From Labilibacter sediminis (lineage in GTDB: Bacteria > Bacteroidota > Bacteroidia > Bacteroidales > Marinilabiliaceae), in the NCBI RefSeq assembly GCF_005877885.1, contig NZ_VCHY01000004.1:62001-126000 (forward strand): DNA of 64,000 bases, written 5' to 3'. The number at the start of each line of letters is the position of its first letter. Position 1 is the stretch's first letter. Positions 28,808 to 55,196 of this stretch are shown one piece after another. A program made the translations under genes and the position numbers. The notes beneath the pieces are model-generated. The model had not been told where the DNA came from, did not search any database, and worked only from the letters and a program-made list of their open reading frames with translations.

Positions 28808-29563
28808 CTATATAAGCTGCGTAAACCAACTCTTAAACTCAGCCGACTTATTTTTACTTACAAAAATTTTTTCAGGTGTCTCTATTTTGAGTTGCACCTG
28901 TAAGCGATTATCATAGCGGATCAGCATTTCTTCAATGCTGTCACGCGACAGAATGTATTGTTTATTGGCCCTGATGAAGTCTTTGGGATTGAGGTCGTGA
29001 AGAATCTGTTCCAGCGTTTTTGAATACTGGTAATGCTCACCATTATTCAGATAGATTTCCGTTACCTTACCCGTGGTGTAAAAGCAACTCACTTCACTAA
29101 TGTCAATCGGAATCAGCTTATTATTATCACGGATCAGCATCTTACCAATGTAAGTATTTGGTGGCGTAAGCTCCTGTTGATTGCTTAGGTACTTTAGTTC
29201 ATCACCCGGGCTAAACTTTTTAAACTTTTCAATGGCACGCCCAAGCTCCACCACCTTAATCGGCTTCAGCAGATAATCAATGCTGTTCACCTTAAATGCA
29301 TCAATCGCATAATCATCATATGCCGTGATAAAGATGATTGGGATTTCAATGGTAATGTGCTGGAAAATGGTAAAAGCATTGCCGTCCGACAGATGAATAT
29401 CCATCATAATAAGATCAGGCGCTTCCTTGGTATTTAGCCAGGTGATGGTTTGCCGGATGCTCTCCGTATTGCCAAGGATTTCAATGGATGAATCAATGCC
29501 TTTTAGTATCTCGGCCAGGTTTTCAAAGGCCACGGTTTCATCCTCCACGATTAATACTCTCAT
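28808..29563 (-). CDS. LytTR-family response regulator, end of super-operon
   Basis: Cytoplasmic response regulator of 251 residues. The receiver domain (1-120) has VEDE and phosphoacceptor Asp55 in LIMMDIHLSDG, with the FITAYDDYAIDAFKVNSIDYLLKP switch block; the LytTR DNA-binding domain occupies about 148-250 (MLIRDNNKLIPID, FIRANKQYILSRDSI). It starts 3 bases after the kinase gene, so the pair is one unit. It is the last gene of the long - strand run, making it a candidate autoregulator of the whole cluster. It is clearly distinct in sequence from the LytTR protein at 24845. Confidence 0.95.
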   Translation of the reverse strand: MRVLIVEDETVAFENLAEILKGIDSSIEILGNTESIRQTITWLNTKEAPDLIMMDIHLSDGNAFTIFQHITIEIPIIFITAYDDYAIDAFKVNSIDYLLKPIKVVELGRAIEKFKKFSPGDELKYLSNQQELTPPNTYIGKMLIRDNNKLIPIDISEVSCFYTTGKVTEIYLNNGEHYQYSKTLEQILHDLNPKDFIRANKQYILSRDSIEEMLIRYDNRLQVQLKIETPEKIFVSKNKSAEFKSWFTQLI

Positions 29564-29566
29564 TCT

Positions 29567-30580
29567 TTACTTCTTTAAGGGTAAAAATACAATAAATGTC
29601 TGACCATCATCACTTACCCTTATTTTTTTATTCATCATGATCTGAAAGCGGTTCTCCAGGTTTTTAAGGCCGGTACCGTTTGTTTTATCTGGTGAGAGTT
29701 TGGGGTATATCGGATTGCGAATTTCCAGTTCATCGTTTTCATTCAGCCTGATCTGAACTTCCATTTTGTGTTCGCTATCAATCGTATTGTGTACAACCAC
29801 ATTATCAATAACCGGCAAAATGGATAAACTTGGCAGCTTCAAAATCTTTTGGTTTTCTTCAATGTTAATATGAAAATTAAGCTTATTAGCAAAGCGGACT
29901 TCCATTAAATAGCGGAATGAAGCCACAAATTCAAGCTCTTCGCCAAGGGTTACAAGGCCTTTGTTTTCACTGTTTAATATGTATCTGAACATGTCTGAGA
30001 GCTTATTCACAAACTCAATCGTTTTTTCATCATTTCCTTTGCGTACCAGGGCCGTGACACTATTTAGTGAATTAAAGAAGAAATGTGGATTAATTTGATT
30101 AGATAAGGCATTGCAACGGCTTTCCAGGTTGTCAATTTTCAATTGCTCAATCTCCTGTTCTTTCTGGCGCTGATCTTTATACATGTGATAAACATGGCCT
30201 ATAAAGGCGGCCATAAGGCAAATGAAAAAGAACTGGAAAATAAGGATGCTTCCGAAGCAATCTACGAAGGTGCAATACGAATAAGAAATAAGCACATAAG
30301 TCAGATAGGCGACCGCGCAAACGGCCATATTTAACATTAAGCGCCTTCTAAATATGGAGGTAGATATTTTTTTCAGGTTAATATGAAATAGAATACCTGC
30401 CAGTATGGCAAAAAATACAAAGCGGATGATCGAAAAATTAATATGTTTCGCTCGTTCGATACCTTCCAGATAACTCAGCTTCCAGGGGAGCTGAGTAAAG
30501 TTGGGATAGGTGATGAGTGCAGCGCCCAACAAGCTGATCAGGATAAGCTTATATGGATTGTATTTTTGTAAAAAAATCAT
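29567..30580 (-). CDS. LytS/YehU-type sensor histidine kinase
   Basis: Membrane sensor kinase of 337 residues. Hydrophobic segments near residues 11-25, 48-66, 83-101 and 113-136 form a compact sensor with no large extracytoplasmic loop. The His_kinase domain begins NQINPHFFFNSLNSV (phosphoacceptor His in PHF), and the ATPase end is degenerate but recognisable (PSLSILPVIDNVVVHN; NGTGLKNLENRF). It follows the propeller gene by 26 bases and is coupled to the LytTR regulator. It may sense membrane or redox state connected with the lipid/redox genes upstream (inference). Confidence 0.93.
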   Translation of the reverse strand: MIFLQKYNPYKLILISLLGAALITYPNFTQLPWKLSYLEGIERAKHINFSIIRFVFFAILAGILFHINLKKISTSIFRRRLMLNMAVCAVAYLTYVLISYSYCTFVDCFGSILIFQFFFICLMAAFIGHVYHMYKDQRQKEQEIEQLKIDNLESRCNALSNQINPHFFFNSLNSVTALVRKGNDEKTIEFVNKLSDMFRYILNSENKGLVTLGEELEFVASFRYLMEVRFANKLNFHINIEENQKILKLPSLSILPVIDNVVVHNTIDSEHKMEVQIRLNENDELEIRNPIYPKLSPDKTNGTGLKNLENRFQIMMNKKIRVSDDGQTFIVFLPLKK

Positions 30581-30606
30581 TACTGAAAGACGTTTAATGT
30601 TTCTGT

Positions 30607-31875: not shown

Positions 31876-31897
31876 TGTTCTCATATCATCAGTATAG

Positions 31898-33169
31898 TTA
31901 ATCATTATTAATGGTCTGTTTGTAGATTTCCTGTAGTTTGCCGGCCAATACCTTGTCGTTGTAAACCTGCCTGGCCTTCTCTTTTGCTTTTGATGCAGCT
32001 GCCTCATAGAGAGTCTGATTATTAAGAAGTTTTTCCAGTGCCTCAGCTAGTTTATCAGGCGTATTGGGTTTGTATAAAAGGCCTGCTTCGTCAATAATTT
32101 CCGGAAAGGAACCGGTGGCAGGAGCCACGGCAGGTACACCCGATGCAAAGGCTTCGCACAGGTATAAGCCCACACCTTCCTCAAAAGTCAGGGGTACGGA
32201 AATGACAGAAATGGAACCGTAAAAAGTGGCATGGTCGGCCATCGAATAGCCATCCAGGAATTCCACGTCATGCATCACCGGTGCCAGAATATCCCTGACC
32301 TCTTTCACAAATTTCTTGTCATGATCCGTGTAACCTCCGCCGATTTTAAGTTTGAGGTCGGGGATGCCGTTTTTCCTTTTCAGGCTTACAAATGCCTTGG
32401 CCAGAATATCCAGTCCGTTCTCTTTGTTCAGTCGGTAATAATAGCCGATTACGTTATTGCCGATTGCTTCTGACTCTTTGTAATTGCTTAGATTGATGCC
32501 CGGGTAGGCTACTTCAACACCTGAAGCATCCGGCAATCTTTCCTCTGCTATTCCTTTGTAGAATTTACTGGTGGTCACTAAGCGGTCCACGTAAAGAAGG
32601 CTCTCATTAATGCTGTCCCAAGCCAGGCGGGCGTATTTTTCTTTCATGCTGTCAATCCACACCTCCTCATCCTGTAGCGAGCACACCACGGGGGTATCTA
32701 TCTTTTCTTTAATCGCTTTGGCAATGCCGATGAGCAATGAGCTTGACAAATGAATAATATCCGGTTTTTCATCCTGGCTTAACCAGGTAATCAGGCGCTC
32801 CACTTCTTTCTGAAACACCGGGTCATTTCCCCTGATCATGGATAATGTCATGCCCTCCATGCCTTTGGCTGAAGTGGTGCCTGACATGGAAGAAGCCATT
32901 TTAAGCATGGAATCTGATCCTGTGAAGCGCTCCAGCCACGTGGGCATGGTGACGCGTTTGAATAATTTCTGCGCAAGGTAATATGTGGTGGCCGGGAAGA
33001 AGATCGGGCTTTTCGGTTGAAAAGTGTGCTTATTCAGGGGCAGGTACAAAGGTATAACAATCACCTCATGTCCTTGTTTTTGCAGTGCAGAGGCTTGCAG
33101 GTTATCGCGCATGCAATTGCCGCAATAAAACGAATCACCAACTCCCGGAATAATAAAGACGACCTTCAT
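31898..33169 (-). CDS. GT4-like glycosyltransferase
   Basis: Cytoplasmic GT-B glycosyltransferase of 423 residues. The start at 33169 (MKVVFIIPGVGDS) was chosen because the upstream extension overlaps the permease gene and lacks similarity. The N-terminal domain has a CGNCMRDN element at about 20-27; the C-terminal domain has the GGGYTDHDKKF loop and the E-x7-E pair (EEGVGLYLCE) that binds the nucleotide-sugar donor in GT4 enzymes, followed by PAVAPATGSFPEII. It lies 1 base after the permease stop. In this operon the likely acceptor is the exported or polyprenyl lipid product (inference); no sugar donor can be read from the sequence. Confidence 0.88.
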   Translation of the reverse strand: MKVVFIIPGVGDSFYCGNCMRDNLQASALQKQGHEVIVIPLYLPLNKHTFQPKSPIFFPATTYYLAQKLFKRVTMPTWLERFTGSDSMLKMASSMSGTTSAKGMEGMTLSMIRGNDPVFQKEVERLITWLSQDEKPDIIHLSSSLLIGIAKAIKEKIDTPVVCSLQDEEVWIDSMKEKYARLAWDSINESLLYVDRLVTTSKFYKGIAEERLPDASGVEVAYPGINLSNYKESEAIGNNVIGYYYRLNKENGLDILAKAFVSLKRKNGIPDLKLKIGGGYTDHDKKFVKEVRDILAPVMHDVEFLDGYSMADHATFYGSISVISVPLTFEEGVGLYLCEAFASGVPAVAPATGSFPEIIDEAGLLYKPNTPDKLAEALEKLLNNQTLYEAAASKAKEKARQVYNDKVLAGKLQEIYKQTINND

Positions 33170-33170
33170 T

Positions 33171-36100
33171 TTACTTATAATTTCGTTGAACTTCACGTTT
33201 AACCACACGGCTTATAAAAATAAGCGTTAAAAGCGTAAATAAACCTGTTAGTATCAGTGCTGTGACCCAGACTGAAAAACTGACATTAGTGTAATTGGTG
33301 CCAATGCTGATCACGGCACTGATCAATCCAGTGACAATAGCATACAAGGGCACCGGTATATTCTCACGGTAAAGTATGGCTTCCGTTTTTTGCTTGCTGA
33401 AACCCAGGCGGGCGTACATTTCAATTTCGTACTGCCGCACATTCAGGTTTTTACGGATAACAATCACGAATCCCATGATACCTATTAGCAGACCGATTCC
33501 ACCTAATGTCATGAAGATGGTAAGGTAAGTATCGGTGACTGTATTAAATTGTGCCAGTCTTTCGCTGGTGGTACTAACCCTTACGCCATACTCGTACATT
33601 GCTTGTGACAGCATCGTTTTAGTTTGATTAATCGCATCCGGTTCAGTGTCTAAAAGGAATATTTCACTTCCGGTAATATCCGGCCAGATCTGTGAAAACA
33701 GCTCTTTATCCATCAGAACATGTCCCTGGAAAATTGTATTTGGTAAGGTGCAGACAAGTTGAACGGCCACTTCCTGACCATTATTGCCCGTGTAATATAT
33801 GGTATCGCCCAGACTTTTAACCAGGCTCCATTGCAATACCGTGGCATCAACCAGTACCGGGTAAACATTATCTTTTGCCTGCAATAAACGTTTTAACAGT
33901 CCGTCCTTATCGGTCTCATACATGTTATTGACAATGCCAAGCTCACTTTCAAACAACTGATGCATATCTACCCCCAACACAGTGGGTGTACTCACTTTAT
34001 TCAGGTTCAGGCAGCTGGCTTCATCCGCCTTGTATCGAAGGCACTGAAGAACATCCGGATTACCGGACAAGCCAGATAAGTTTAGTTTTTTCTTACCTTC
34101 TGCCGTATTCATGTTATGGTACACCGGGATGGAGCTATCGCACCATAAATCATAGCCTCCGGTTGTCTGGCTTAGCTTTGACGGATTGTTAAAATCCTGC
34201 CGGTTTAAGCCCACAGAGAATACAATAAATACACCTGTGGCCAGCGAAAGGTAAGATAGCACAGCCTGCTTTTTGTTGGCCAAAAGCGTACGCCAGGTCA
34301 GCTTCTCCTGCTTAAAATCCTTAGTTGTTGCACCACCTCTTTTACTAATGTGATATTCGCCCCATAAAGCAAAGGTGAGCATTAGCATTACACCAGTGAT
34401 GGCGAAGAGTGCTACCGAACTAATGAAAAACAGGTTGTAAACAGCAATGGTTAAGGTTAGTGTAAGCGCAACGAACAAAAGTGTTTTCTTCATCAGGAGG
34501 GATGAAGCTTCGGATTTGACTGAAGATACCTTATCCTTTAGGTGCCTGGAAATAACACGGCGTAAAACAATCAGGGAGAGGACAATGCCAACCACAAAGG
34601 CCATTCCCAGGGTAAACACATTCGAATATACCGAAAGGCTGCTAGTATGCGTTGCACCTGACCAAAATGTATTTAAAAGAAAGATGATCAGAGCAGTATA
34701 GAGTAAACCCGTTAGCACGCCGGCAATTGAAGAAAACACAACCACGGGGGCCGATTCCATCCACAAGAGGTAGCGGATGCGTTTAATCGTATAGCCAAGC
34801 GCTTTTAATAATTCAAGTTCAGATTTTCGCTTGTGAATCATTTCAGACAGTGGCACAATCATGAGCAGAATTGCCCCCATGATAATGAAAAAGCCCAGTG
34901 CTAAAAATAAGCCGGCAAAATCAACCCCGTTTTTAGCTGCATAAATCCCGGACTCCCTCGGATGAACCACTTGTACGCCAAACATAGCGGCATTCAGGGC
35001 TGATAGATCAGGTTTTTCTCCCGGAATCCGAACGCCTGTGGCATAGCCGTAGGTATGGCCCCATAAGTCTTCCACAGCCTCATAAGGTAAAATAGCTTTG
35101 GGTGTGGAATGGTACAGTTCCCAATACTTTTCATCCTCTTCCGTGATCAGATCCATGTCAATGGGCAGGTCGCTGTCCCAGGCCGTACAGGATTCCACAT
35201 CTGAAATGCCCGGGAAGTGGGCGCTTAATGTGTTGTCCTTTACCAGCTCTGAAAGAGGCACGATTTGTTTAATCTTTAGTTGCAGCGAATCTGTCACAAG
35301 CGTTTTAAAATCCTGTGAAGTAAAAAAGCTTATCCAGACTTCATCTCCCACATCTGCATTTAATCGTTTGGCCGAATAATCCGCTAAAATCACTTCATCA
35401 GATAGTAACGTTTGCCCCTGATATTCATCCATAGCTGTGATGAAGGAGTAGGGGATAGATTCAGATTCCAAGCGGATTGAATTACCCAGGTAGGAATACA
35501 TCCGGTTCATTTCGGAATTCGTCAGGCCAAGCGCTTCCAATACCTCGTATTGTAAAAACACCCGGTCTGAACTCAATTCGGAATAGCCTTTTCGGGCCTG
35601 TACAGAAAGTCCGGATACTTCATGGTGCCAGGCACTATTGATTTCATCCGTTCCTATTATTCTGTCCGACATGATCAGGTTGATCTTTCCCGGGACTTCC
35701 ATTGTTTCGGACAATTCATGGCGGTTCACAAAGATATTCAGAGGGAGTCGTTGCTCATTGAGTAAACTGATATTACCGCCCGCTTCTGTCTCAAGGATGC
35801 CCTCATACTCCAGTCTCAAACTTGTGGTATACGTTTCTGTCACAAACAAAGAGCCCGAAGGTACAAGGCCCGGTGCCGGCAAACGCAGCACCAGTGATTC
35901 ATTCTCATTCAGCCTGAGCTCGCTTGCTAAGGTCGGGTTAATCATTGCCTGGCCTTTCTCCAGATTCAGATCATCCACACCCCAGACCATGACCGGAATA
36001 AGGGTTCCCTTTCGTGCGATAAATCCATTGCTCAACAGGATGCCCTTTGCAGAAGACTTGAATACAGCGTCTTTGGCGAAAGTTTCTTCAAGGTAACTAT

Positions 36101-36293
36101 TGTGGGCAAAGATGACGGTTTCCGTGTCACCCAGTCGTTCAGAAACCTGATTAATCAAACTGCTCCGCACTGAATCACCAATGATCAGACTTCCGGCAAT
36201 CACCGCTACTGATATGAGCACCGCCAAACCTACCAGTATAAAATAACGGGCAAAGAAACGGATGTTCTTTTTTATGAGGTCGTTGGTTTTCAA
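33171..36293 (-). CDS. Large FtsX-like ABC transporter permease
   Basis: Inner-membrane permease of 1040 residues belonging to the FtsX/MacB-like group. TM1 lies near residues 14-36, followed by a periplasmic domain of about 400 residues, then four TMs (about 455-650, with GFFIIMGAILLMIVPLSE), a second periplasmic domain with a CLRYKADEASCLN segment, and three C-terminal TMs (about 910-1030). This double arrangement is typical of permeases that work on lipids, lipoproteins or periplasmic polymers by mechanotransmission, not as import channels. It overlaps the ATPase gene by 4 bases (ATGA). In this operon it may extract or deliver the terpenoid lipid or its carrier protein (inference). Confidence 0.9.
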   Translation of the reverse strand: MKTNDLIKKNIRFFARYFILVGLAVLISVAVIAGSLIIGDSVRSSLINQVSERLGDTETVIFAHNSYLEETFAKDAVFKSSAKGILLSNGFIARKGTLIPVMVWGVDDLNLEKGQAMINPTLASELRLNENESLVLRLPAPGLVPSGSLFVTETYTTSLRLEYEGILETEAGGNISLLNEQRLPLNIFVNRHELSETMEVPGKINLIMSDRIIGTDEINSAWHHEVSGLSVQARKGYSELSSDRVFLQYEVLEALGLTNSEMNRMYSYLGNSIRLESESIPYSFITAMDEYQGQTLLSDEVILADYSAKRLNADVGDEVWISFFTSQDFKTLVTDSLQLKIKQIVPLSELVKDNTLSAHFPGISDVESCTAWDSDLPIDMDLITEEDEKYWELYHSTPKAILPYEAVEDLWGHTYGYATGVRIPGEKPDLSALNAAMFGVQVVHPRESGIYAAKNGVDFAGLFLALGFFIIMGAILLMIVPLSEMIHKRKSELELLKALGYTIKRIRYLLWMESAPVVVFSSIAGVLTGLLYTALIIFLLNTFWSGATHTSSLSVYSNVFTLGMAFVVGIVLSLIVLRRVISRHLKDKVSSVKSEASSLLMKKTLLFVALTLTLTIAVYNLFFISSVALFAITGVMLMLTFALWGEYHISKRGGATTKDFKQEKLTWRTLLANKKQAVLSYLSLATGVFIVFSVGLNRQDFNNPSKLSQTTGGYDLWCDSSIPVYHNMNTAEGKKKLNLSGLSGNPDVLQCLRYKADEASCLNLNKVSTPTVLGVDMHQLFESELGIVNNMYETDKDGLLKRLLQAKDNVYPVLVDATVLQWSLVKSLGDTIYYTGNNGQEVAVQLVCTLPNTIFQGHVLMDKELFSQIWPDITGSEIFLLDTEPDAINQTKTMLSQAMYEYGVRVSTTSERLAQFNTVTDTYLTIFMTLGGIGLLIGIMGFVIVIRKNLNVRQYEIEMYARLGFSKQKTEAILYRENIPVPLYAIVTGLISAVISIGTNYTNVSFSVWVTALILTGLFTLLTLIFISRVVKREVQRNYK

Positions 36294-36961
36294 TTTAGTA
36301 TTCCGTTTTTAAGTGTGACAATCTGTTTAGCTGCCTTTGCCATTTCTTCCGAATGCGTCACCATGAGGATGGTGGTATTCAGCGTCTGGTTAATTTCAGA
36401 AAGTAAGGCCACAATGTTAAGGGCATTTTCCATGTCCAGCTGTCCGGTTGGTTCGTCTGCCAGCAGAATAGCCGGTTTCATTATTAAGGCTCTACACACG
36501 GCCACGCGGCTGGCTTCACCGCCGGAAAGGTGATCAGGGCTTTGATTGGTCACATGTTCAATCCGTGTGAGCTTCATCAGTTTCCTGGCATAATCAATAT
36601 AGGGTTGCGGCGCTTCGGAGTGATATGCCAATACTGGCAATAGGATATTCTCAAGTGCTGAAAACTGGGGCAATAAGCGGTGATCCTGAAACACAAAGCC
36701 GATTTTCTCATTACGCAGCTTATGCACGTCGGTCTGAGTGCCTGTTATCTCCTGACCATCCAGAATGTATGAACCTTTATCCGCCATCAGGAGAGTGCCC
36801 AGAATCGAAAGTAAAGTAGTTTTTCCGGAACCGGAAGCGCCTTTTACTGCAATGAAATCGCCCTTGTTCACTTCCAGGTTCAGCCCTTTCAGAACTGCAT
36901 TAAGCCTGTTATCACCGTCCTGGTAGCTCTTATGTATCTTGGTTAATTTTAATATACTCAT
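36290..36961 (-). CDS. LolD/MacB-type ABC transporter ATPase
   Basis: Cytoplasmic ATPase of 223 residues; the start at 36961 (MSILKLTKIHKSY) fits the family better than the longer frame. Walker A is GASGSGKTT (about 41-49), the Q-loop is in FVFQDHRLLPQ, the signature is LSGGEASRVAV, Walker B is ILLADEPTGQLD and the H-loop is in TTILMVTHSEE. The sequence is of the LolD/MacB/FtsE type that pairs with FtsX-like permeases, matching its 4-base overlap with the permease gene. Together they make a complete inner-membrane exporter or mechanotransducer. Confidence 0.95.
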   Translation of the reverse strand: MSILKLTKIHKSYQDGDNRLNAVLKGLNLEVNKGDFIAVKGASGSGKTTLLSILGTLLMADKGSYILDGQEITGTQTDVHKLRNEKIGFVFQDHRLLPQFSALENILLPVLAYHSEAPQPYIDYARKLMKLTRIEHVTNQSPDHLSGGEASRVAVCRALIMKPAILLADEPTGQLDMENALNIVALLSEINQTLNTTILMVTHSEEMAKAAKQIVTLKNGILN

Positions 36962-38134: not shown

Positions 38135-39103
38135 TTAATTCTCTACTATATACAGTGCACCGGTCGGGCATAGCGAAGCCAGCTCAACACGGATGTTCTT
38201 CTTATTCTCTTCCGGCAGAATCACCTCCATGCCAAAACCACGGTCTTTGAAGGTAAAGCCGTTGTCACTATTGTAAACACACAGGCCGCAACGGATGCAT
38301 TTGGATGGCTCGAAATACATGATGTCATTCACCTTAGTTTTTGACATCACCTGCAACTCACTGCTCATATCATAGCCGGGCCGTTTAATTTTATGAGCTG
38401 TCGCATGAGTCCTCAATTGACAATCGGATCTGCCGGTGCAGGCACAATGCAGGCAATTGGAAGGTGTAGAAACCGTTTCCTTTAACCGTATTTTTTCACT
38501 GTCACTAAAACGGCCTAAACGGGATTGAAACAGTTTTTTATCAATCGCCACATTTTCAACTTCGTCCACAACAGCTGCATCCATTTCGTCAGTCAATTCT
38601 TTAATCAGCTTACGAATCGATACCGGAGCATCGATGTTCCCCCTTCTGCACGCTTTTTCACATGGGGCTTTACAGTCTTCACAAGCCAGCTTCGGCAAAT
38701 CAAAAGCATGTTTGATCAGGCCAACTGCTTTTTCCTTTTGCCCCTTATCATAGTAGTCCAGCATCCGCTCGATGTCCAGTTTAGCCGGGCACACCAGCGA
38801 GCAGGGAGCTTCACAATCGGCCCGGTGGTCGCTGAGTAAAAGCTCCAGTGACATGGTCCGAACCTGCATCACTTCTTCGCTTTGTGTATCGATTTGCATC
38901 CCTTCCACCGGTTTGCTTGTACATGACGGAATAATCTGGCCACGCGACATATCCTTTACCGCACATAACATGCACGACGATTTATGCTTTGCATCCTTCG
39001 ACCAGCAGAGTGACGGGATTTCGAAGCCTTCGTGCCGTGCAATCTCCAGCAAGGTATCCTGGCCCTGCACTTCTATGGTTTTATCGTTAATTGTTATTTG
39101 CAT
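38135..39103 (-). CDS. NuoG/HydA N-terminal-like multi Fe-S protein
   Basis: Cytoplasmic electron-transfer protein of 322 residues; the start at 39103 (MQITINDKT) has AAGAAG upstream and begins the 2Fe-2S fold directly. Domains: ferredoxin-like [2Fe-2S] with Cys33, 44, 47, 61 (the spacing of NuoG/HydA), a His/Cys region, a GltD/dihydropyrimidine-dehydrogenase-like Fe-S helical domain (CEAPCSLVCPAKLDI and CEDCKAPCEKACRRGNID), and a C-terminal Cys-rich part (CLHCACTGRSDC; CIRCGLC; LCPTGAL). It lacks the H-cluster motifs of [FeFe]-hydrogenase and the molybdopterin domain of NuoG, so it is only an electron-transfer subunit. It overlaps the NADH dehydrogenase gene by 17 bases and is presumably its partner. 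Confidence 0.88.
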   Translation of the reverse strand: MQITINDKTIEVQGQDTLLEIARHEGFEIPSLCWSKDAKHKSSCMLCAVKDMSRGQIIPSCTSKPVEGMQIDTQSEEVMQVRTMSLELLLSDHRADCEAPCSLVCPAKLDIERMLDYYDKGQKEKAVGLIKHAFDLPKLACEDCKAPCEKACRRGNIDAPVSIRKLIKELTDEMDAAVVDEVENVAIDKKLFQSRLGRFSDSEKIRLKETVSTPSNCLHCACTGRSDCQLRTHATAHKIKRPGYDMSSELQVMSKTKVNDIMYFEPSKCIRCGLCVYNSDNGFTFKDRGFGMEVILPEENKKNIRVELASLCPTGALYIVEN

Positions 39104-45511: not shown

Positions 45512-46423
45512 TTATTTATTCTTTAGCTCAAAGACCTTAATCTGATTTTTCACCGCAGTCACCAGCTTGTTGTCAAATGTTTTAAGCTGGTATGGCAGAT
45601 GACCTCCTCCCAACAGGCTGTGATTAAGTAGAATCTGGTTAAAGGCGCCGGATTGATCATAGTGGCTGATCCGTGGATTCCCTTTCTCAGAGGTGAGCAG
45701 GCGACCCTGTTCGTCGAAATGGATATAGGACGGATTGCAACATCCGACAAAAGCACCGGCATCACTTCCGGCACGCCCAAAGGCGGCAATAAATTCTCCG
45801 TTCAGGGTATAGGATTCCACACGATGCCTGCCTGGGTTGGCGCAGTAAATGGTGTCGTTTTTATGCGTGATGTCAAAGAAATGGCTCGGGGTAATAAATT
45901 TATCCGGGCTCTCAATGAACTGTACAAAATTACCTTCACGCGTATATTTACAGATGTTTTTATGGCCCACATCGCTTACAAATACGAAATCATTCGATAT
46001 TGTAAATGATGAGTAATCAGATAACTCACTGCAGGCATCCCACGCATTCAGGGAATCGCCATTCAGCGAATAGTTTTCAATGAAAGCAGGGTAGAGAATA
46101 AACAGACTTTTATTACTGATGGCAATATCCCTCACATTAGCTTTAATTTTAAACGATGACACCTGTTCACCACGCAAATTATAGATGCTGACGGATTCTT
46201 TACCAGCCACATAAAGGCGCGTTCCGTGCAATTCGAAAGCCACCACGCTGTCCTTTACCTCAATGCCCGAACGCAGTTGGTAATCACTGTCAAATGTATG
46301 CGTTGCAGGGTTTTGTATCAGTACTTGTTTCTCATCACCATCCGGTCGTAGCACATAGATGATAAACCCGATCACTATCAGGAGAATCACAATATTAACA
46401 GCCACCTTTATTGATTTGTCCAT
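45512..46423 (-). CDS. Membrane-anchored NHL-type beta-propeller
   Basis: Protein of 303 residues with one N-terminal TM (about 7-24), after which it lies in the periplasm. The rest is an NHL/6-bladed propeller with blades such as GEQVSSFKIKANVRDI, GNFVQFIE, GEFIAAFGRAG and DAGAFVGCCNPSYIHFD. The last has a CC pair. No catalytic site is obvious; it probably forms a scaffold or binding surface. It is flanked by PQQ-type propellers and by the Fe-S genes at 2-3 base spacing, so it is likely part of the same periplasmic assembly. Confidence 0.88.
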   Translation of the reverse strand: MDKSIKVAVNIVILLIVIGFIIYVLRPDGDEKQVLIQNPATHTFDSDYQLRSGIEVKDSVVAFELHGTRLYVAGKESVSIYNLRGEQVSSFKIKANVRDIAISNKSLFILYPAFIENYSLNGDSLNAWDACSELSDYSSFTISNDFVFVSDVGHKNICKYTREGNFVQFIESPDKFITPSHFFDITHKNDTIYCANPGRHRVESYTLNGEFIAAFGRAGSDAGAFVGCCNPSYIHFDEQGRLLTSEKGNPRISHYDQSGAFNQILLNHSLLGGGHLPYQLKTFDNKLVTAVKNQIKVFELKNK

Positions 46424-49068: not shown

Positions 49069-50799
49069 TTAAACCATTATTTTTGTCTGTGATAATTTCT
49101 TTTTATAAGCGTTTAATGCATTCAATACAAAAGTGATATTGTACATATCTTCTGAATACCACAGCCTTGCAAAGTAAAGTCCGATAGGCTCCGGTTTCAG
49201 TATTTTCTTTGATTCATATTTTAAATATAGAAAGTTGAAAGCATTATCCAGTATGCTTTCCTCTACATTGTCTATTGTGCTTAAGGCGCTTAAAGCTCTG
49301 GCTGTTAGTGTGACCTTTGAACGTACACCTATGGCACCGCCCCAGCCGCCGTCTGTATTTTGGGCGCTTAAAAGGAAAGATGCTCCTTTGGCCACCATTT
49401 CTTCTGCAAGCGGATGGTCAATGCCGGAAAGGTATTCCACAGATAATGCAGTACCGTATACCGGCGAGCGTTCATCCTGTGCATCCTGATCGCCAAACCA
49501 AAGCGGATACCAGCAACCTTCAGGGCTTTGTTTCTTTTTCATCCAGCGCAACATCCGGTTGGCGCCATTGTCACATTTCTTTTTAAGCGCATTAGGTAAG
49601 TGATCACGCCACAGGCTAAAGGCCAGCAGAGCATGAGCTGTAATATCCGGGCTGCTTCGGTCGAAGGGCAGTTTACCCCATCCTTTGCAGAAAGTCGGGA
49701 TGCCGCCATCTGCATTTTGAAGGGAGAGGAGCCACTCGAGGCCTTTTTCAATTTCCGGACTCATTTCCCCATTGCTCAAATCGTAAAGTGCTACCAGTGC
49801 GCCGGAGGTGTCATCGGCATCGGGGGCCGCACCAGGCAGGTTAGTCCAGCCCCAGCCACCTTCTTTTGCACCTGTAAAGGGGTGCTGACATTTGAAGGCA
49901 TTCTGCTTAATCTGATTGGCGAGGTTTAGCCGGTCAGGGATATTTTCTCCCATTGCCCTGACGCTTAGTGAAGTTACCCAGGCAGCCAGATTGGTGTCAA
50001 TTGGCCAGGAACCGTCTTTGCGTACAGTGTCGGTCAGGAAGCCGATGCCTTTTCGTACTGCTTCATGATCTCCGTATCCGGCGCCACACATGCACATGGC
50101 CACAAAGCTGGTTAGCGGTGCTGCCTCCAGAAAACCGCCATGTTTCGGCTGAAGTTTAATTAGTACTTTTAAGGAACCCGGTATAAACTTTTCCCTCAGC
50201 AGGTTCTTGCTTCCTTTTTTATAGCGCAGGATGCCCACGGCTATTAAAGCTGGTATGGCATAACTCACCACCGGCAGGCGCAGGAAGCGGAATAGTTTCT
50301 GCGGCAGAACAGACAGTTCAAAAGGTAATTGTGGTATGTTTTTCCAGGAAGAAATGACGCCGGCCAGTGCACACATCACAAGGATGGGGGCAGAGAAGGT
50401 GAGATCTTTTCCGTAATACTTTAATACACCTTCAATAATGTGGGCATCGCTGATGCCTCCGAATTTATCGTTCAAAAATGCTTTTGTTGGCTCCGGTGTT
50501 TCCCCCACAGCAGTTAACGTGGCAAAGGTCAGCAGGGTGGCAGTCATGTTCGAAGGGCTCTCCGGACTGTCGCCCCAGGAACCATCTTCAAGCATTGTCT
50601 TTTTCAACCAGGCCACCCCGTTTTCAATGCCTGACTGATGTTTATCCTTGTTAGACATAAAAAGCGCAAATACAGCTACAGATGTCGAAATCGCACTGGA
50701 CGACAGGTAACCGCTCCACAAACCTCCGTCTTTCGGACGTTTGTCAATCAGCTCTCCGCTGAGGTAATCGATCATCTTATGTATTTTTTCTTCCTGCAT
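49069..50799 (-). CDS. Class II terpene cyclase, squalene-hopene-cyclase family
   Basis: Cyclase-family protein of 576 residues, shorter than typical squalene-hopene cyclases (about 630). It has QW-type repeats (EDGSWGDSPE at 71-80, KDGSWPID near 261, NADGGIPTF, SPEGCWYPLWF, NTDGGWGGA near 481), the class II proton-donor motif DxDD as PDADDT (326-331), and a conserved SSPDITAHALLAF block. A hydrophobic region (about 135-190, LPVVSYAIPALIAVG) matches the monotopic membrane-entry segment of the family. It should protonate and cyclise a polyprenyl chain at the inner membrane. No squalene synthase is nearby, so squalene may not be the substrate (inference). It starts immediately after the stop of the repeat protein, so the two may form a heteromer. 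Confidence 0.92.
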   Translation of the reverse strand: MQEEKIHKMIDYLSGELIDKRPKDGGLWSGYLSSSAISTSVAVFALFMSNKDKHQSGIENGVAWLKKTMLEDGSWGDSPESPSNMTATLLTFATLTAVGETPEPTKAFLNDKFGGISDAHIIEGVLKYYGKDLTFSAPILVMCALAGVISSWKNIPQLPFELSVLPQKLFRFLRLPVVSYAIPALIAVGILRYKKGSKNLLREKFIPGSLKVLIKLQPKHGGFLEAAPLTSFVAMCMCGAGYGDHEAVRKGIGFLTDTVRKDGSWPIDTNLAAWVTSLSVRAMGENIPDRLNLANQIKQNAFKCQHPFTGAKEGGWGWTNLPGAAPDADDTSGALVALYDLSNGEMSPEIEKGLEWLLSLQNADGGIPTFCKGWGKLPFDRSSPDITAHALLAFSLWRDHLPNALKKKCDNGANRMLRWMKKKQSPEGCWYPLWFGDQDAQDERSPVYGTALSVEYLSGIDHPLAEEMVAKGASFLLSAQNTDGGWGGAIGVRSKVTLTARALSALSTIDNVEESILDNAFNFLYLKYESKKILKPEPIGLYFARLWYSEDMYNITFVLNALNAYKKKLSQTKIMV

Positions 50800-51690
50800 T
50801 TAACTTTCTTCATTAATTAATAAGGCTGATCCTATAGCTAATAATCCGTAAAAACAGTATTCCACATCGCTTTTATCATCCAGTAAGGTAGCGATAAAAC
50901 CACCAGATTCTGCCCAATGGGCTTCAATAAATTCCAGTGCCTGGTAGTTGGGCTTTTCCTTGTAGGACTTTAATACAAACAAGGCAGTGGCAGTTGATAA
51001 CAGATCCGGCACTGGTGCCGAAGGTGCAGCCTTAAATCCGCCTGAAATATCCTGCATGGATTTGAGGAACCCGATTGCTTTCTCTTGCTTACCATTGCTT
51101 ATTTGCCCTAATACAGATAAGGCAGCTGTGGTGGCATTGGTGGTGGCGGTAAGTCCATCTGAGACATTCATGAAGCCTCCTGTTTCGTGGCGGTATTGCT
51201 CCAGGTTCTTTTCAATTTTGCTTTTCTCTGGGAGCTTATTCCCGGTATCTTCCAATAACGAAATCCAGATGAATTGGGTATAAGGGGAGCTGATGTTCTG
51301 GTGTGGCATATGCTTAAAATCATTCAGGTCCCTGACTCGCTGTTTACTTTGGGTTTTCAACCAGGTTAATGCACGACCCTTTTTGCGCATGTAAAGTATT
51401 AGTTCACACCGTTTAAAGGCTGTATAGTGAATGAGGTCCAGATCGTCTTCATGCTGGTGCGACAGATAACCGGCCATTTTATCTGTATCAAGATGAATTC
51501 CGAGTACCAGACATAACATCCAGCCAAAAGAAGTATAGTACAGGTCTGATTCACCGCTTTTATTCATAAATGAGTGATCCTGCAGTAATTGAGATCGTAC
51601 AAATGCAGATAAGTGATCAATGGCTTCTCTTCCAAGCTGACCCTTTCCTGATTTTAGCGTATCCAATATGTTGGCTGAAATACTCTGCAT
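50800..51690 (-). CDS. Prenyltransferase/squalene-cyclase-repeat protein lacking DxDD
   Basis: Soluble-looking protein of 296 residues with the alpha-helical repeats of the prenyltransferase/squalene oxidase superfamily (GGFMNVSDGLTATTNATTAAL at about 178-198 is the best one; also ISGGFKAAPSAP and AESGGFIATL near the end). It has no DxDD and no membrane-entry helix, so it is not a cyclase alone; it resembles one (alpha/alpha)6 barrel, as in protein-prenyltransferase beta subunits, but I cannot point to the zinc ligands. It lies between the polyprenyl synthase (1-base gap) and the cyclase (0-base gap), suggesting a partner or chaperone subunit for the cyclase. Confidence 0.85.
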   Translation of the reverse strand: MQSISANILDTLKSGKGQLGREAIDHLSAFVRSQLLQDHSFMNKSGESDLYYTSFGWMLCLVLGIHLDTDKMAGYLSHQHEDDLDLIHYTAFKRCELILYMRKKGRALTWLKTQSKQRVRDLNDFKHMPHQNISSPYTQFIWISLLEDTGNKLPEKSKIEKNLEQYRHETGGFMNVSDGLTATTNATTAALSVLGQISNGKQEKAIGFLKSMQDISGGFKAAPSAPVPDLLSTATALFVLKSYKEKPNYQALEFIEAHWAESGGFIATLLDDKSDVEYCFYGLLAIGSALLINEES

Positions 51691-51691: not shown

Positions 51692-53251
51692 TTATTTTAA
51701 AATGCGCCCTGTAACCCGAAAGAGCAGACGTTTTAGTTCTGTATTAGTAATCTGGTTCAGGGCTGTCAGTGCTTCTTTTCGAAAGCTGTCAACCATTGTC
51801 TGAACACGTGAAATGGCGCTTTCAAGCATGTGTTCATGATCAGCTGATCTTAAGAAACCTTTCAGATCGTCGGTATGTAGCAAGGAATGCACAAACAGCT
51901 CATCATTGCTATTTTCGCAAATGGCGGCTATTACAGCCGAGGGTCGGATAACCAGTGGGTCGTCTGTCTCGAAATCTTCAATGTCATCCTTTAGCTGGTA
52001 AGCAATACCCAATGCATTGGAGTATCGGCTAAGTACCTGACGAGTTTCTTCGTGGTTATCAACACAGAGCGAACCTATTAACAGTGATACTTCAAAGGCC
52101 GGTACCGTCTTGTGTTTAAAAATGTCAAGTATATAATCCATGCTTAAAGGCTGTGGATCTTTACTCCATTCCAATTCCATACCTTGACCTTTGCACAGGG
52201 CAATGTGTGCATCGGAGGCTACCTTTATTAACCTCATGTGGTCGCATTGCGCAAGGAGGCGATAACCTTCGCCCAGGTACATGTCACCCACATTAATGGC
52301 GATCGGCACACCATGTGTGGCATTTACCGTTTCCTTACCATAGCGTATTAAATCTTCATCCTCTATGTCATCGTGCACCAGTGAAGCCTTGTGAAAGCAC
52401 TCAATAGCAATGGCTGCACGCTGTACTTTTTCCGGTATTTCGTTTTTCCCGCTTATGGCCATGTAAGTGGCAGCCAGCAGGTACGGACGCCAACGTTTTC
52501 CGTCACCACCCATCCATTGCCTTGCAATGACGGATGTCTGGTCATCAAGGGGTGAAAGAACCTTACTCAGATTTTCAGGCTGAAACCAGGTTTTGATGGT
52601 TGTTTTCAGCAGATCATAGTTCAGCAGACTGGCGGTTTGTTCCGATCTCATTTCCATGATCCGGTACACATAGTTTTCGTCTACCGTGGTTTCCTTGCAA
52701 CCTTCCTCATTCAGGGGAATGGCTAAGCCCGGTACGGCATTGTTGATCAGAAGCGGAAAGGCTTTCTCCAGTGAATCTAGGCAACTTACGCCAATCACCG
52801 TATCCACGACACCGCTTTCAACCAGGCCAACCACTGATGTAAATCCTTCGGCCACCAGACTCATCATGCCCAACTCTTCGGCACGGGTTTGCAAATCAGG
52901 AATGTTACACTGTGTGCACAGGTTGCAGAGTAAGCCGAGCTCATCAATATCTGCCTTACAGGATGATGAATCGCTCAGGCATTTAGGGAGCAGCAAAATT
53001 CGCTTGTTATGCGGAATTGATGCAACAGTATCGAACCATACGGCGTTATGCAGTTCCACCATTAACCAGCTTTTTCCTGCCGTATCAAGTTGCCGTTCAT
53101 TGATCAGCTGCAGTGCCATGTCCGAAAGCTGATCCATTGAAACAGGAGGTGTCAGGTTTTGCTTACCCGCGAACGTGCGTATGGCATTTCGTAATACCAG
53201 ACGTTCTTCCTTCGTCCCCGGAACTTTATATTTAAATTGCGTTTTTTCCAT
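51692..53251 (-). CDS. DUF116-polyprenyl diphosphate synthase fusion
   Basis: Protein of 519 residues in two halves. Residues about 80-200 match DUF116 with its Cys set (Cys91, 98, 109, 112 and 115; KRILLLPKCL and GLLCNLCTQC), probably an Fe-S or metal site. Residues about 225-519 are a trans-isoprenyl diphosphate synthase: GKRWRP (251-256), first Asp-rich motif DDIED (294-298) and second DDIED (422-426) for Mg-PPi binding. The residues 4 and 5 before the first motif are Ser290 and Ala289, not the bulky aromatics of C15/C20 synthases, which suggests a longer product (inference). It starts 14 bases after the radical SAM gene. It likely makes the cyclase substrate. The fusion links prenyl chain synthesis to Fe-S chemistry. 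Confidence 0.92.
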   Translation of the reverse strand: MEKTQFKYKVPGTKEERLVLRNAIRTFAGKQNLTPPVSMDQLSDMALQLINERQLDTAGKSWLMVELHNAVWFDTVASIPHNKRILLLPKCLSDSSSCKADIDELGLLCNLCTQCNIPDLQTRAEELGMMSLVAEGFTSVVGLVESGVVDTVIGVSCLDSLEKAFPLLINNAVPGLAIPLNEEGCKETTVDENYVYRIMEMRSEQTASLLNYDLLKTTIKTWFQPENLSKVLSPLDDQTSVIARQWMGGDGKRWRPYLLAATYMAISGKNEIPEKVQRAAIAIECFHKASLVHDDIEDEDLIRYGKETVNATHGVPIAINVGDMYLGEGYRLLAQCDHMRLIKVASDAHIALCKGQGMELEWSKDPQPLSMDYILDIFKHKTVPAFEVSLLIGSLCVDNHEETRQVLSRYSNALGIAYQLKDDIEDFETDDPLVIRPSAVIAAICENSNDELFVHSLLHTDDLKGFLRSADHEHMLESAISRVQTMVDSFRKEALTALNQITNTELKRLLFRVTGRILK

Positions 53252-53265
53252 ACTGCCAAGCTCTT

Positions 53266-54483
53266 TTAACCATATGCGCCAAATCCGAAGAAGTATTTTT
53301 TCTTCATGATTTTATATAATACATTCTCTTCCGGGATTTCACAGCCTTTCTGATCGTGGCCGGCTACCGGTGCCATGCTTCTGTACTCCTGCAACACCGT
53401 TTGCCGTGATGAGGAATCCTGTGCTTTATATTGTTCGGCGAAATCTGCCAGTTTGTGAGGGTCCTCCAAAAGGATGCATCCCCTTGTGCCATCTACTGTC
53501 AACGCTCTTAAATCTGCCAGAAATTCTGATTCTTCAAATAAGGCCTGGAGGTTACTCCCGTCTGCATTAATGAAATCACGGGCCATTTGAATGGGTGGGC
53601 AAAATTCCACTGCTCCACCTGGTGAAATGTGGTGACTCATGCCTGTGGCAGCCGGGCAAAGTGCATTACCCTGTGCATCCCAATAGGTGTCGATGAGGAA
53701 AAGCGGGGCATCCCTGCGTTGTTTCACGATGAATTTGCGTAATTCAAGAATCTGATCTTCGTTCAGGGCGTTGGCAGGGTCAGGCTTGGCACCCACCGGA
53801 CGGTAAATGTAATACCAGAGGTAATGCACGCCTTCCTTAGCCAGCAAATCAATGTATTTTCTGTTTACAAGATCATTATAATTGCCCTTGCAGATACTTG
53901 CGGCTGCACCAAACATTAACTTGTTTTTCTTGCAGGCTCTCACACCTGCAAGTGTTTTATTGTATACATCATCACTTCCCCGACGTTTTTCACTTTCTTC
54001 TTTCAGGCCTTCGATGCTAATAAGCGGGGTGATGTTGCCAAGCTTCTTCATACGGGCAGCTATTGCATCGGTGATGAGCATGCCGTTGGTGAACAGCTGG
54101 AAGTAGCAGTCGGAATGTTTCTCAATAATGTCGAACAAACCTTTGTATAATAAAGGTTCACCACCTAAGACACCAAAGAAGTAGGAGCCACGTTTTTTAC
54201 TTTCTGTAATGATGCCGTCCAGTTGTTCTTTGCTAAGTGATTTTTTACCACCTGTCGAAACCCAGCAGCCACTGCATGCAAGGTTGCAGCTTTCTGTTAC
54301 GGAAATCATCACGAAAGCGGGGAAGAAAGGCTCCCCTTTTGCCTGTCGCTTTTCAAATTGCCGCATGTTTTTTAGGTTGCGCCAGGCAAAATTGTAAAGG
54401 ATTTTCCAGACAAGCCAAGGCGATACTTCCATTGGCACACGCAGCATCGTCCTGAAATTGGCCGTATATTCTCTTATTGTCAT
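53266..54483 (-). CDS. Radical SAM enzyme with SPASM-like C-terminal cysteines
   Basis: Radical SAM enzyme of 405 residues. The SAM [4Fe-4S] ligands are Cys66, Cys70 and Cys73 (CNLACSGC), followed by the SAM-binding GGEP (107-110). Further cysteines in ALCPAATG, VEFCPP, RGCILLED and KGCEIPEE could hold auxiliary clusters, as in SPASM/twitch proteins. The core motif CNLAC.GC and GGEPL is also that of HpnH, which adds adenosyl to hopene, but overall assignment to HpnH is not secure. A 1-base overlap (TAATG) couples it to the ferredoxin. In this operon it may modify the terpenoid or form C-C bonds. Direct target unknown. Confidence 0.9.
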   Translation of the reverse strand: MTIREYTANFRTMLRVPMEVSPWLVWKILYNFAWRNLKNMRQFEKRQAKGEPFFPAFVMISVTESCNLACSGCWVSTGGKKSLSKEQLDGIITESKKRGSYFFGVLGGEPLLYKGLFDIIEKHSDCYFQLFTNGMLITDAIAARMKKLGNITPLISIEGLKEESEKRRGSDDVYNKTLAGVRACKKNKLMFGAAASICKGNYNDLVNRKYIDLLAKEGVHYLWYYIYRPVGAKPDPANALNEDQILELRKFIVKQRRDAPLFLIDTYWDAQGNALCPAATGMSHHISPGGAVEFCPPIQMARDFINADGSNLQALFEESEFLADLRALTVDGTRGCILLEDPHKLADFAEQYKAQDSSSRQTVLQEYRSMAPVAGHDQKGCEIPEENVLYKIMKKKYFFGFGAYG

Positions 54484-55196
54484 TATGATTTGTCTCTTTT
54501 AAGCATCGAAAAACGATTTCGGTTTTGTTGTAAGCGGTACTGTAAACGCTTTTGATACATTTCAGCTTTGTCTTCTTCCGTGAATACTTCTTCCATTTCC
54601 GTACCACCGTTAATCGGTGATTTCTCGTACTTTGGAAAAATGATAGCCTGGCATGGGCACATGCGTGCACATGCCGGACAATTGGTTTTGCAGTTGTGTG
54701 GATTTGTTACTTTAACTTGTTTGTTTTCAGTTGTGTAAACCCCAAATAAGCAGAAGTCGTGGCACTTGCCGCATTCGGTGCATTTTGATTTGTCAATCAC
54801 CGGATACCAGGCGTCGTGGTCTTTATGGACGGGTAGTGCATCTATTTCTTTATATATGTCATCAGTCGTTTGAGAAGTTTTGTCTTCCTCCAATCCAAAT
54901 TCCGATAATATTTCTTCAGAACTATTCTTTCTGGCTTCAATGATGGTGCCGGGGGTAATGCCCAGCCAGTTCATATGATTATTAACAACCCTGGTATGGC
55001 AGGCGATAATGGTACCTTCTTTAACCTTTATTATTTGATTGGGATCGTCGGCAACCAGACGGCATAGGTCATCTTTTATATCAACCAGATAGCCATTGCT
55101 CCTTAAAGTAGCAGTTATACCGGCCACCTTTTTTTTATCCATAAATGTGCGCGAGGTGCATGCGCAAATAGTTACAGCCTTACAGTGCATCTTCAT
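54483..55196 (-). CDS. Double-cluster ferredoxin with HdrA-like N-terminus, first gene of super-operon
   Basis: Fe-S protein of 237 residues. The N-terminal part (1-85) has TICACTSRTFMD, DDLC and IIACHTRVVNN, resembling the N-terminal Cys region of HdrA-type subunits; the C-terminal part has two [4Fe-4S] sites: CTECGKCHDFC (139-149) and CKTNCPACARMCP (169-181). No signal peptide, so it is cytoplasmic. It is the first gene of the operon and coupled by a 1-base overlap to the radical SAM enzyme, so it is a plausible reductant for that enzyme. A candidate promoter lies about 37-64 bases upstream. Confidence 0.88.
   Translation of the reverse strand: MKMHCKAVTICACTSRTFMDKKKVAGITATLRSNGYLVDIKDDLCRLVADDPNQIIKVKEGTIIACHTRVVNNHMNWLGITPGTIIEARKNSSEEILSEFGLEEDKTSQTTDDIYKEIDALPVHKDHDAWYPVIDKSKCTECGKCHDFCLFGVYTTENKQVKVTNPHNCKTNCPACARMCPCQAIIFPKYEKSPINGGTEMEEVFTEEDKAEMYQKRLQYRLQQNRNRFSMLKRDKS

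Follow-up and report, generated by a model that had tools for sequence, protein, structure and literature searches.

A two-module locus of Labilibacter sediminis pairing putative terpenoid genes with a predicted electron-bifurcating relay

Related systems

The Bfu (HydABC-like) family is defined, in the available portions of PMC9304861, by a BfuB subunit with NuoF, SLBB, NADH_4Fe-4S and 4Fe-4S domains and a BfuC subunit equivalent to NuoE; the His/Cys ligands of its B2 cluster are missing from non-bifurcating homologues. The locus of L. sediminis described here shares the BfuB/BfuC/BfuA domain set and the B2-cluster residues, but its BfuC and BfuB are fused into one chain and its third partner is a predicted relay of NapH-like, NapG-like and propeller proteins; the main text of PMC9304861 uses none of the terms NapH, NosR, propeller, polyferredoxin, periplasm and terpen. 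A Fer4_5 membrane protein accompanied by a Tat-type polyferredoxin is common to this locus and to the NapGH, NosR and MauMN systems, but the pair in L. sediminis adjoins an NADH/ferredoxin core instead of a quinol pathway, and Pfam identified no Nap, Nos or Mau enzyme in the cluster.

Class II cyclases of known structure (1gsz, 7xq4, 8zg0) have the DXDDT motif and QW-type repeats in common with the cyclase of the locus, which differs in having a separate toroid partner and in the frequent lack of a squalene/phytoene synthase-family match among its hosts. The same fusion of DUF116 to a polyprenyl synthetase is named for Psta_0175 of Pirellula staleyi in the accessible part of PMC5898192, an account that gives the fusion only, without an operon, a cyclase or the electron-transfer genes. 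There DUF116 is predicted to bind metal and to transfer electrons, and in archaea it lies near sulfite/nitrite reductases. The best NCBIfam match of the synthase is the cargo polyprenyl transferase of the Family 2 encapsulin terpenoid operons (PMC8346489, seen in part), at 117 bits, far below the cut-off of 450, and unlike those operons the cluster has no encapsulin recognisable with Pfam. Neither module of the locus is described among the matches listed from the open-licence PMC literature, in keeping with an earlier note on this DNA that knew of no described system with this combination.

The gene cluster and its surroundings

The window is a stretch of 64,000 nt (assembly GCF_005877885.1, contig NZ_VCHY01000004.1, positions 62,001-126,000), and its numbering is used throughout. 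Its positions 28808-55196 hold 21 genes, all on the (-) strand and as closely packed as the earlier note had reported, with intergenic gaps of at most 26 bases (the widest between the histidine kinase gene and P1) and overlaps of 1-17 bases (17 between the Fer2 and NuoEF genes). The open reading frames comprise 20 of 191-1040 aa and one of 67 aa; the translations place likely starts inside the longest frame for P1 (31875), the glycosyltransferase (33169), LolD (36961), P2 (38123) and Fer2 (39103). Pfam confirmed the LytTR and His_kinase pair, GT4, FtsX/ABC, Fer2_4, NuoE with NuoF, Fer4_5/NapH and polyferredoxin assignments, as well as the class II cyclase, the polyprenyl synthase with DUF116, the radical SAM enzyme and, through PQQ_2, all five propellers that had been called PQQ-type.

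The set divides into two separable modules, and this division is well supported: a terpenoid module, M1 (49069-55196; ferredoxin, radical SAM enzyme, DUF116-polyprenyl synthase, toroid partner, class II cyclase), and an electron-transfer module, M2 (30607-49049; BfuC-BfuB fusion, BfuA, NosR/NapH-like protein, NapG, propellers, LolD/FtsX, glycosyltransferase). G+C content is 45.7% in 30607-55196, against 37.1% in 1-28000 and 36.8% in 59115-64000. Between the first gene of the cluster and the beta-galactosidase gene upstream of it is a terminator-like stem (55918-55893), and the same scan found such stems on the (-) strand inside the cluster too. The 21-gene cluster was not found in three close relatives, and it is probably an anaerobe locus acquired by transfer.

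The electron-transfer module

M2 contains a predicted electron-bifurcating core, the BfuC-BfuB fusion (39087..41498), with NuoE, [2Fe-2S], NuoF/FMN and Fer4 domains. In its 803-aa chain Complex1_51K, NADH_4Fe-4S, Fer4 and 2Fe-2S_thioredx score above their cut-offs and SLBB below (21.9 vs 27). It matches nine solved chains with E-values of 1e-162 to 1e-206, including NfnB, the best match, and HydB-type chains of bifurcating complexes. Residues C635, H722, C727 and C732 are conserved in 26/26 aligned rows, and the same residues are aligned in five solved chains; mapped by offset to 7t2r_B, they would correspond to C438/H525/C531/C536 of PMC9304861. Both the BfuB/BfuC domain composition and the B2-cluster His/Cys ligands that mark the family are thus present. 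The HydB/Nfn-type matches and the B2-cluster residues make an electron-bifurcating Bfu core the better reading of what had been taken for an NADH dehydrogenase without hydrogenase. The adjacent BfuA-like subunit (38135..39103) has Fer2_4, GltD-type Fer4 and Fer4 domains; the window copy lacks a Pfam flavin domain, which two of the three M2 relatives scanned possess.

The membrane component is a NapH/NosR-like polytopic Fe-S protein (43446..44729) with Fer4_5 and 15 cysteines kept in at least 98% of 59 rows. It scores far below the NCBIfam cut-offs of NapH (63 vs 213 bits) and NosR (57 vs 1000 bits), and the FMN-binding domain, a feature of NosR, is not among its Pfam matches, so that it belongs to neither family by these measures. 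Next to it is a NapG-like polyferredoxin (44730..45305; Fer4_7) with a twin-arginine leader (RRKF, by eye) and 17 cysteines present in 97-100% of 70 rows. The 67-aa Cys-rich protein (45305..45508), with a hydrophobic leader and the motif C-x2-C-x4-C-P-L-R-K, is separate in 12 of the 69 rows having both the NHL propeller and NapG (one genome counted twice); the motif is fused to the C-terminus of the NHL propeller in 49/73 NHL rows.

Each of the six propellers has a cysteine conserved in 98-100% of rows: in P1 (30607..31875), a relative of P5, Cys181 in longest-ORF numbering (invariant, 26 rows); in P2 (36966..38123), with a lipobox-like leader by eye and with Beta-prop_ACSF4 and PQQ_2 above cut-off, Cys220 (22/22); in P3 (41500..43449), membrane-anchored by hydrophobic N-terminal stretches seen by eye, Cys337 (98% of 41 rows); and in P5 (47850..49049), with a signal-peptide-like start, Cys130 (45/45). 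The NHL-type propeller (45512..46423), with a membrane anchor by eye and a GCCNP motif, keeps C228-C229 in 73/73 rows; its window copy has no Pfam match at 0.001, and the fold that the earlier note had assigned is borne out when a profile built from 27 relatives is compared with NHL domains in the PDB (E 1e-25). As regards PQQ-dependent dehydrogenases, which are marked by ligands for PQQ and Ca2+ in an 8-bladed domain, PF01011 matches the propellers weakly (22-34 bits, cut-off 26.7).

P4 (46426..47847) is a membrane-anchored, BamB-like propeller in which R137, H160, M184, C185, C215, M256 and H258 are invariant (n=32). Its model (pLDDT 89.8) has BamB and tetrathionate hydrolase (7cqy/6l8a) among its nearest folds. 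This fold match, the conserved Cys/His/Met set and the position of archaeal DUF116 near sulfite/nitrite reductases in the excerpted PMC5898192 would suit an anaerobic respiratory or detoxifying reductase of a sulfur or thiol compound, with the terpenoid only stiffening the membrane as hopanoids do; but the fold match is common to BamB and quinoproteins, Pfam revealed no sulfur-substrate gene in the cluster, and we regard this explanation as decidedly unlikely.

The terpenoid module

The first gene of M1 encodes an Fe-S protein (54483..55196; Fer4_10) with an N-terminal Cys domain and a two-cluster ferredoxin, in which 12 cysteines are invariant over 73 rows. It is followed by a radical SAM enzyme (53266..54483; PF04055) in which C66, C70, C73 and the C-terminal C276, C295 and C336 are invariant (n=9). 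The DUF116-polyprenyl diphosphate synthase fusion (51692..53251) keeps both Asp-rich motifs and seven DUF116 cysteines (n=33); its residues H293-D294-D295-D298-R303, Q419-D422-D423 and R255 (IPP-binding G-K-R region) are likewise invariant, as expected of a trans-polyprenyl diphosphate synthase, and its model (pLDDT 90.2) finds prenyl synthases as fold matches (TMt up to 0.82). The conserved cysteines, together with the prediction in the available part of PMC5898192, suggest that DUF116 is a redox domain. The last two genes encode a small alpha/alpha-toroid prenyltransferase-like partner (50800..51690; Prenyltrans), which resembles Rab GGTase beta weakly at the profile level (27.9 bits), and a class II, squalene-hopene-type cyclase (49069..50799; SQHop_cyclase). 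D327, D329, D330 and T331 of the cyclase align with the acid motif of 1gsz, and the DXDD proton-donor motif that characterises the superfamily is invariant (30/30).

The squalene/phytoene synthase family (PF00494) has no match in 14/24 M1 genomes, and the cyclase therefore probably uses a substrate derived from prenyl diphosphate. The family is marginal in genome G000 (22.8 bits, or 26.1 with neighbours; cut-off 26) and clear in nine other M1 genomes, and these 10 of 24 may have a squalene-like route. Because the cyclase is of the squalene-hopene type and the radical SAM enzyme distantly resembles HpnH, M1 might be taken for a diverged hopanoid pathway; the 14 genomes without a squalene/phytoene synthase-family match speak against this, as do scores far under the equivalog cut-offs (HpnH 46.4 vs 225.05 bits; hopene_cyclase 73.8 vs 431.1 bits). 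A hopanoid pathway, which would call for such scores and for squalene synthase in the same genome, is thus extremely improbable.

Conservation and separation of the modules

The gene order of the block is kept in relatives among the Bacteroidales, and named hosts of the cluster include Carboxylicivirga marina, C. linearis, Mangrovibacterium marinum, Plebeiobacterium and Parabacteroides distasonis An897. At the best 80 radical SAM loci, restricted to those with enough flank, M1 partners are nearly always present (ferredoxin 77/77, synthase 72/72, toroid partner 67/68, cyclase 61/64) and M2 genes usually so (P4 53/57, NHL 52/56, NapG 47/55, NapH 43/53); four of 57 M1 loci (L063, L071, L080, L099) have no P4 nearby. 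Since partner genes are kept at these loci, the association of the 21 genes exceeds chance, and the lack of joint conservation that would have counted against the earlier note was not seen. Among 295 genomes of the order Bacteroidales, the DUF116-synthase and the cyclase occur in the same 13. NapG, as a marker of M2, was found in 11 of these 13 against 37 of the 282 others, two of the 37 representing another locus (Fisher p 4e-8, a value that ignores kinship). P4 is in 13/13, a count that covers M1 genomes alone. Genome G558 has M1 and P5-P1-P4-NHL, but NapG was not found there at 1e-15, and its electron block may thus have diverged or be dispensable; NapG was not found in G556 (82% complete) either.

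Co-occurrence of M1 and M2 could be due to shared habitat or shared transfer. M1 adjoins M2 genes in five genomes, from two distant M1 clades, and the modules stand apart in another five. With the G+C island in the window and the three close relatives lacking the cluster, this separation would suit two anaerobe modules without a functional tie that are carried on the same mobile segments, their linkage arising from transfer and niche; P4, however, occurs in all 13 M1 genomes even where the modules are unlinked, and gene order is common to the two M1 clades, only about 45% identical in the radical SAM enzyme. We consider independence unlikely.

M2 occurs without M1 in 11/14 NapG regions that lack M1; two of these 11 genomes (G408, G511) have a weak DUF116 match. 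With M2 so often standing alone, the exporter and glycosyltransferase are not regarded as terpenoid-specific. The FtsX-type permease (33171..36293; PF02687) is present in 8/11 M2-only and 11/11 named stretches, the LolD-type ATPase (36290..36961; PF00005) in 9/11 and 11/11, and the GT4 glycosyltransferase (31898..33169; Glycos_transf_1), absent from some copies, in 10/11 and 5/11. The proposal of the earlier note that the terpenoid takes part in or depends on trans-membrane electron transfer finds support in co-occurrence; the role of LolD/FtsX and the glycosyltransferase in placing it does not, as they belong to M2 and stand in 11 loci of genomes without a cyclase match or a full-strength DUF116-synthase match.

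Tight linkage in a kept order, P4 in every M1 genome and an exporter in the same block would also agree with the terpenoid being the substrate of M2: the relay would reduce or hydrogenate the polyprenoid on its periplasmic face and LolD/FtsX would move it to the outer membrane, an explanation close to the view of the earlier note. Against it, M2 with exporter, glycosyltransferase and propellers is kept in the genomes without the cyclase or a full-strength synthase match, where M2 must therefore have another substrate, and it is rather improbable.

The LytTR response regulator (28808..29563; Response_reg, LytTR) is upstream of M1 in 27/65 loci with flank and is present in 0/11 M2-only stretches. 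The LytS-type histidine kinase (29567..30580) is upstream of M1 in 23/57 loci and at the far end, as in the window, in 3/11 named loci. Every occurrence of the pair was at a locus carrying M1; it adjoins M1 at less than half of the loci, and may control it.

Proposed function

The chances are about even that the locus as a whole is a transferred, two-module anaerobe locus in which M2 is an electron relay and M1 its accessory terpenoid pathway. M2 would carry electrons between NADH/ferredoxin pools and the periplasm through its Fe-S proteins, with P4 and the NHL propeller as the periplasmic end. M1 would turn a long prenyl diphosphate into a cyclic polyprenoid without squalene, low-potential electrons from the ferredoxin and DUF116 driving a radical SAM step that modifies the prenyl chain, and the terpenoid may remain in the membrane, where the propeller complex would use it as a substrate or as a lipid partner. 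Among these steps confidence is highest for the M2 relay, lower for the M1 product and lowest for M1 as an accessory of M2; both the structure of the terpenoid and the chemical link between the modules are inferred. A more specific form of the proposal, possible though not probable, is that a squalene-free and O2-free route (Fe-S-fused prenyl synthase, radical SAM enzyme, class II cyclase) supplies a dedicated cyclic polyprenoid, acting in the membrane as cofactor or substrate, to an Fe-S-only, bifurcation-powered relay that ends in periplasmic Cys propellers and has neither quinones nor hemes.

If the general proposal is correct, the Bfu bifurcating family would gain a membrane-anchored, periplasm-facing member; in the more specific form, gut and marine Bacteroidales would here and there move electrons across the membrane with neither quinones nor hemes. 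These bacteria would also gain a terpenoid pathway, 14 of the 24 tested being without a squalene/phytoene synthase-family match. The named hosts make the cluster directly testable, and any cyclic polyprenoid that they produce could be of value as a biomarker.

The gene cluster and its setting

The 21 minus-strand genes (28808-55196) that the earlier note had read as one closely spaced run are real and tightly packed, and the labels it gave them are upheld by comparisons with Pfam, NCBIfam and the PDB, the NHL propeller by its relatives' profile only. They comprise module M1 (49069-55196), encoding a ferredoxin, a radical SAM (rSAM) protein, a DUF116-polyprenyl synthase, a toroid partner and a class II cyclase; module M2 (30607-49049), encoding propellers P1 to P5 and an NHL propeller, a glycosyltransferase, LolD and FtsX, BfuA, a BfuC-BfuB fusion, NapH, NapG and a Cys-rich protein; and a LytS/LytTR kinase-regulator pair (28808-30580) at the far end. 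The contig around the window is 387 kb long, in a genome of 6.36 Mb. The GC content of positions 30607-55196 is 45.7%, versus about 37% on either flank, and three sampled kin (one from the same genus, two from the same family) gave no match to M1 and, at 1e-40, none to P4; acquisition of the cluster by transfer fits this GC rise and these absences. The GC step is smaller than that of the window in 12 of 14 relatives examined.

Promoter matches numbered 3 against 3.7 expected, no more than chance would give, and one of them lies ahead of the first gene. K-mers upstream of the operon included words above the shuffles, at least some of which lie in the coding end of the regulator, and they define no clear site. 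The cluster is flanked by a GH2 beta-galactosidase gene (55950-59114) of a paralogue family with nine matches at 1e-100 in the host genome, and two genes just downstream of the cluster (25560-28009) encode another histidine kinase of LytS type and a protein with an Lcl_C domain. Within 14001-28000 the GC skew, which is about +0.15 to +0.18 before this stretch, changes sign more than once.

M1 and M2 are separate modules

Among 295 genomes of the same order (G-numbers; G000 is the window's own), the DUF116 half of the synthase has 13 full-strength matches (E < 1e-39; in G529 the synthase frame ends at the contig end) and nine weak ones (E 9.6e-8 to 8e-4, open frames of 269-461 aa); these nine of the 22 were excluded from the M1 tally, being weak and in genomes that lack a cyclase match. 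Cyclase matches (1e-10) fall in exactly the same 13 genomes. NapG has 48 matches, in 11 of the 13 M1 genomes versus 37 of the 282 others (Fisher p 4e-8, kinship ignored). P4 is present in 13 of 13 M1 genomes, including both that have no NapG match, a count that covers M1 genomes only and is based on searches of eight genomes (8/8) and on the loci themselves in G000, G417, G596, G648 and G658. M1 adjoins M2 genes in G000, G417, G596, G648 and G556 (in the last as P5-P1-P4 next to the cyclase on a 4.6-kb contig) and is apart from M2 in G504, G558, G588, G658 and G493; the contigs of G410, G452 and G529 are too short to judge linkage.

Nineteen of the 48 NapG regions were taken for reading, 14 of them from M1-lacking genomes (14 of 37 such), and these 14 consist of 11 with the M2 set, one remnant (G633) and two with another locus (G607, G528). 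P4, the NHL propeller, NapG and NapH are each found in all 11 M2-only stretches, P3, the Bfu core, BfuA, P2 and the glycosyltransferase each in 10, P5 and LolD each in nine, FtsX in eight and P1 in seven; the kinase, the regulator and the M1 genes occur in none of the 11 within the stretches read, and a weak DUF116 match is present in two of these genomes (G408, G511). An exporter and glycosyltransferase dedicated to the terpenoid are rejected, since M2-only loci carry both, which places them in M2. The division into two modules and the Bfu assignment are held with high confidence.

The LytS/LytTR pair was observed only alongside M1. Directly upstream of M1, the kinase gene is found in 23 of 57 loci and the regulator gene in 27 of 65 (from the best 80 of 270 rSAM relatives); the far-end position seen in the window recurs in three of 11 loci from named hosts; and in G504 the pair adjoins M1, which there lies away from M2. 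Within the stretches read, the pair is not beside M1 in G417, G596, G558, G648, G658, G588 and G493. Two distant P4-like propellers (29-31%) are encoded directly upstream of the kinase, regulator and M1 at G504:C23:75885-78321.

M1 proteins and the squalene question

In 33 of 33 synthase sequences both Asp-rich motifs are conserved, as is R255 of the G-K-R region; the small residue that precedes the first Asp motif presumably points to a chain length of C20 or more. All 33 also share seven DUF116 cysteines; the 50 fold matches listed are prenyl-synthase structures, none of them for the DUF116 domain. DXDDT is present in all 30 cyclases compared, aligned to the acid motif of the squalene-hopene cyclase 1gsz, and the toroid partner has a weak likeness to Rab geranylgeranyltransferase beta. 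The rSAM protein keeps CxxxCxxC together with C276, C295 and C336 in nine of nine, and its closest NCBIfam families (heme-pathway, SPASM-type and HpnH-like) all score far below cut-off.

The squalene/phytoene synthase family has no match in 14 of 24 M1 genomes, a marginal match in the window's genome and a clear one in nine others. From the 14 genomes we infer that the cyclase probably uses the product of the fused synthase rather than squalene, and a squalene-free terpenoid is proposed with moderate confidence. A hopanoid pathway is rejected as very unlikely on the same 14 of 24 genomes and on low equivalog scores.

M2 proteins

For the 803-aa NuoEF protein there are nine matches among solved chains (E 1e-162 to 1e-206), including NfnB and HydB-type subunits from bifurcating complexes. 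Certain His and Cys columns mark bifurcating BfuB, according to PMC9304861, and they are kept in 26 of 26 aligned sequences. Of three M2 relatives scanned, two have a GltD-like flavin domain in BfuA (Fer2); it is absent from the third and from the window. The Cys pair of the NHL propeller is kept in 73 of 73 aligned sequences; its Cys-rich partner, encoded by a gene of its own (67 aa) in the window, stands alone in 12 of 69 and is fused to the propeller in 49 of 73. P4 has an invariant set of R137, H160, M184-C185, C215, M256 and H258, and BamB is nearest to its model (pLDDT 89.8), with tetrathionate hydrolase and quinoproteins also among the matches. Signal, Tat and membrane-anchor calls were made by eye.

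Distribution and altered loci

A scan with the rSAM profile yielded 270 relatives, of which the best 80 were retained; going by their titles, these 80 are nearly all Bacteroidales or Bacteroidia (one is labelled Eubacteriales), from Carboxylicivirga, Plebeiobacterium, Mangrovibacterium, Parabacteroides, Tannerella and Prevotella as well as rumen and hindgut bins, and P4 is missing near M1 in four of their 57 loci with enough flank. Across the phylum, the same profile at 1e-30 matches three of 395 genomes including its own, the other two (G074, G377) having distant rSAM proteins, and DUF116 is found in 11 genomes, its own counted. Plasmid carriage was dropped as a candidate, with one distant rSAM match only. 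A DUF116-synthase fusion is noted in Pirellula staleyi in PMC5898192; no description of the cluster was found in the open-licence literature among the matches listed.

Two of the 37 NapG matches outside M1 genomes belong to another small locus. This locus, read in the relatives' stretches L197 (582-4442) and L198 (1220-5358), has NapG, NapH and an NHL propeller bearing the same GCCNP motif, together with a Cys-bearing binding lipoprotein, phosphonate-type by eye; because the trio recurs there, NapG, NapH and the double-cysteine NHL propeller may be a reusable electron unit. The G633 locus (L192 88-7438), with P5, P4, an NHL propeller with fused Cys tail and NapG, is broken up by two inserted genes, one for a TPR protein and one for a Bro-N protein; it is apparently a remnant of the cluster, the other genes of which are absent from the stretch. 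At L071 (10001-21215) the M1 members are separated by unrelated genes and NapH-NapG-NHL is inverted, which suggests rearrangement of the locus. L084 (10001-21167) has two to three aligned sequences each for the cyclase, P5, P4 and the NHL propeller, by tandem duplication or broken frames.

A putative terpenoid-propeller partnership

Electrons are predicted to pass from BfuC-BfuB and BfuA to the NapH/NosR-like membrane protein, on to the Tat-type NapG and then to the NHL propeller and its Cys-rich partner. M2 occurs without M1, whereas P4 is present in 13 of 13 sampled M1 genomes, and M1 is most simply read as serving M2. The M1 product would be a membrane terpenoid that serves the propeller complex of the periplasm as partner or substrate, a chemical link proposed with low to moderate confidence. 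The reading as a whole, with its two modules, Bfu core, squalene-free terpenoid and proposed link, is given about an even chance.
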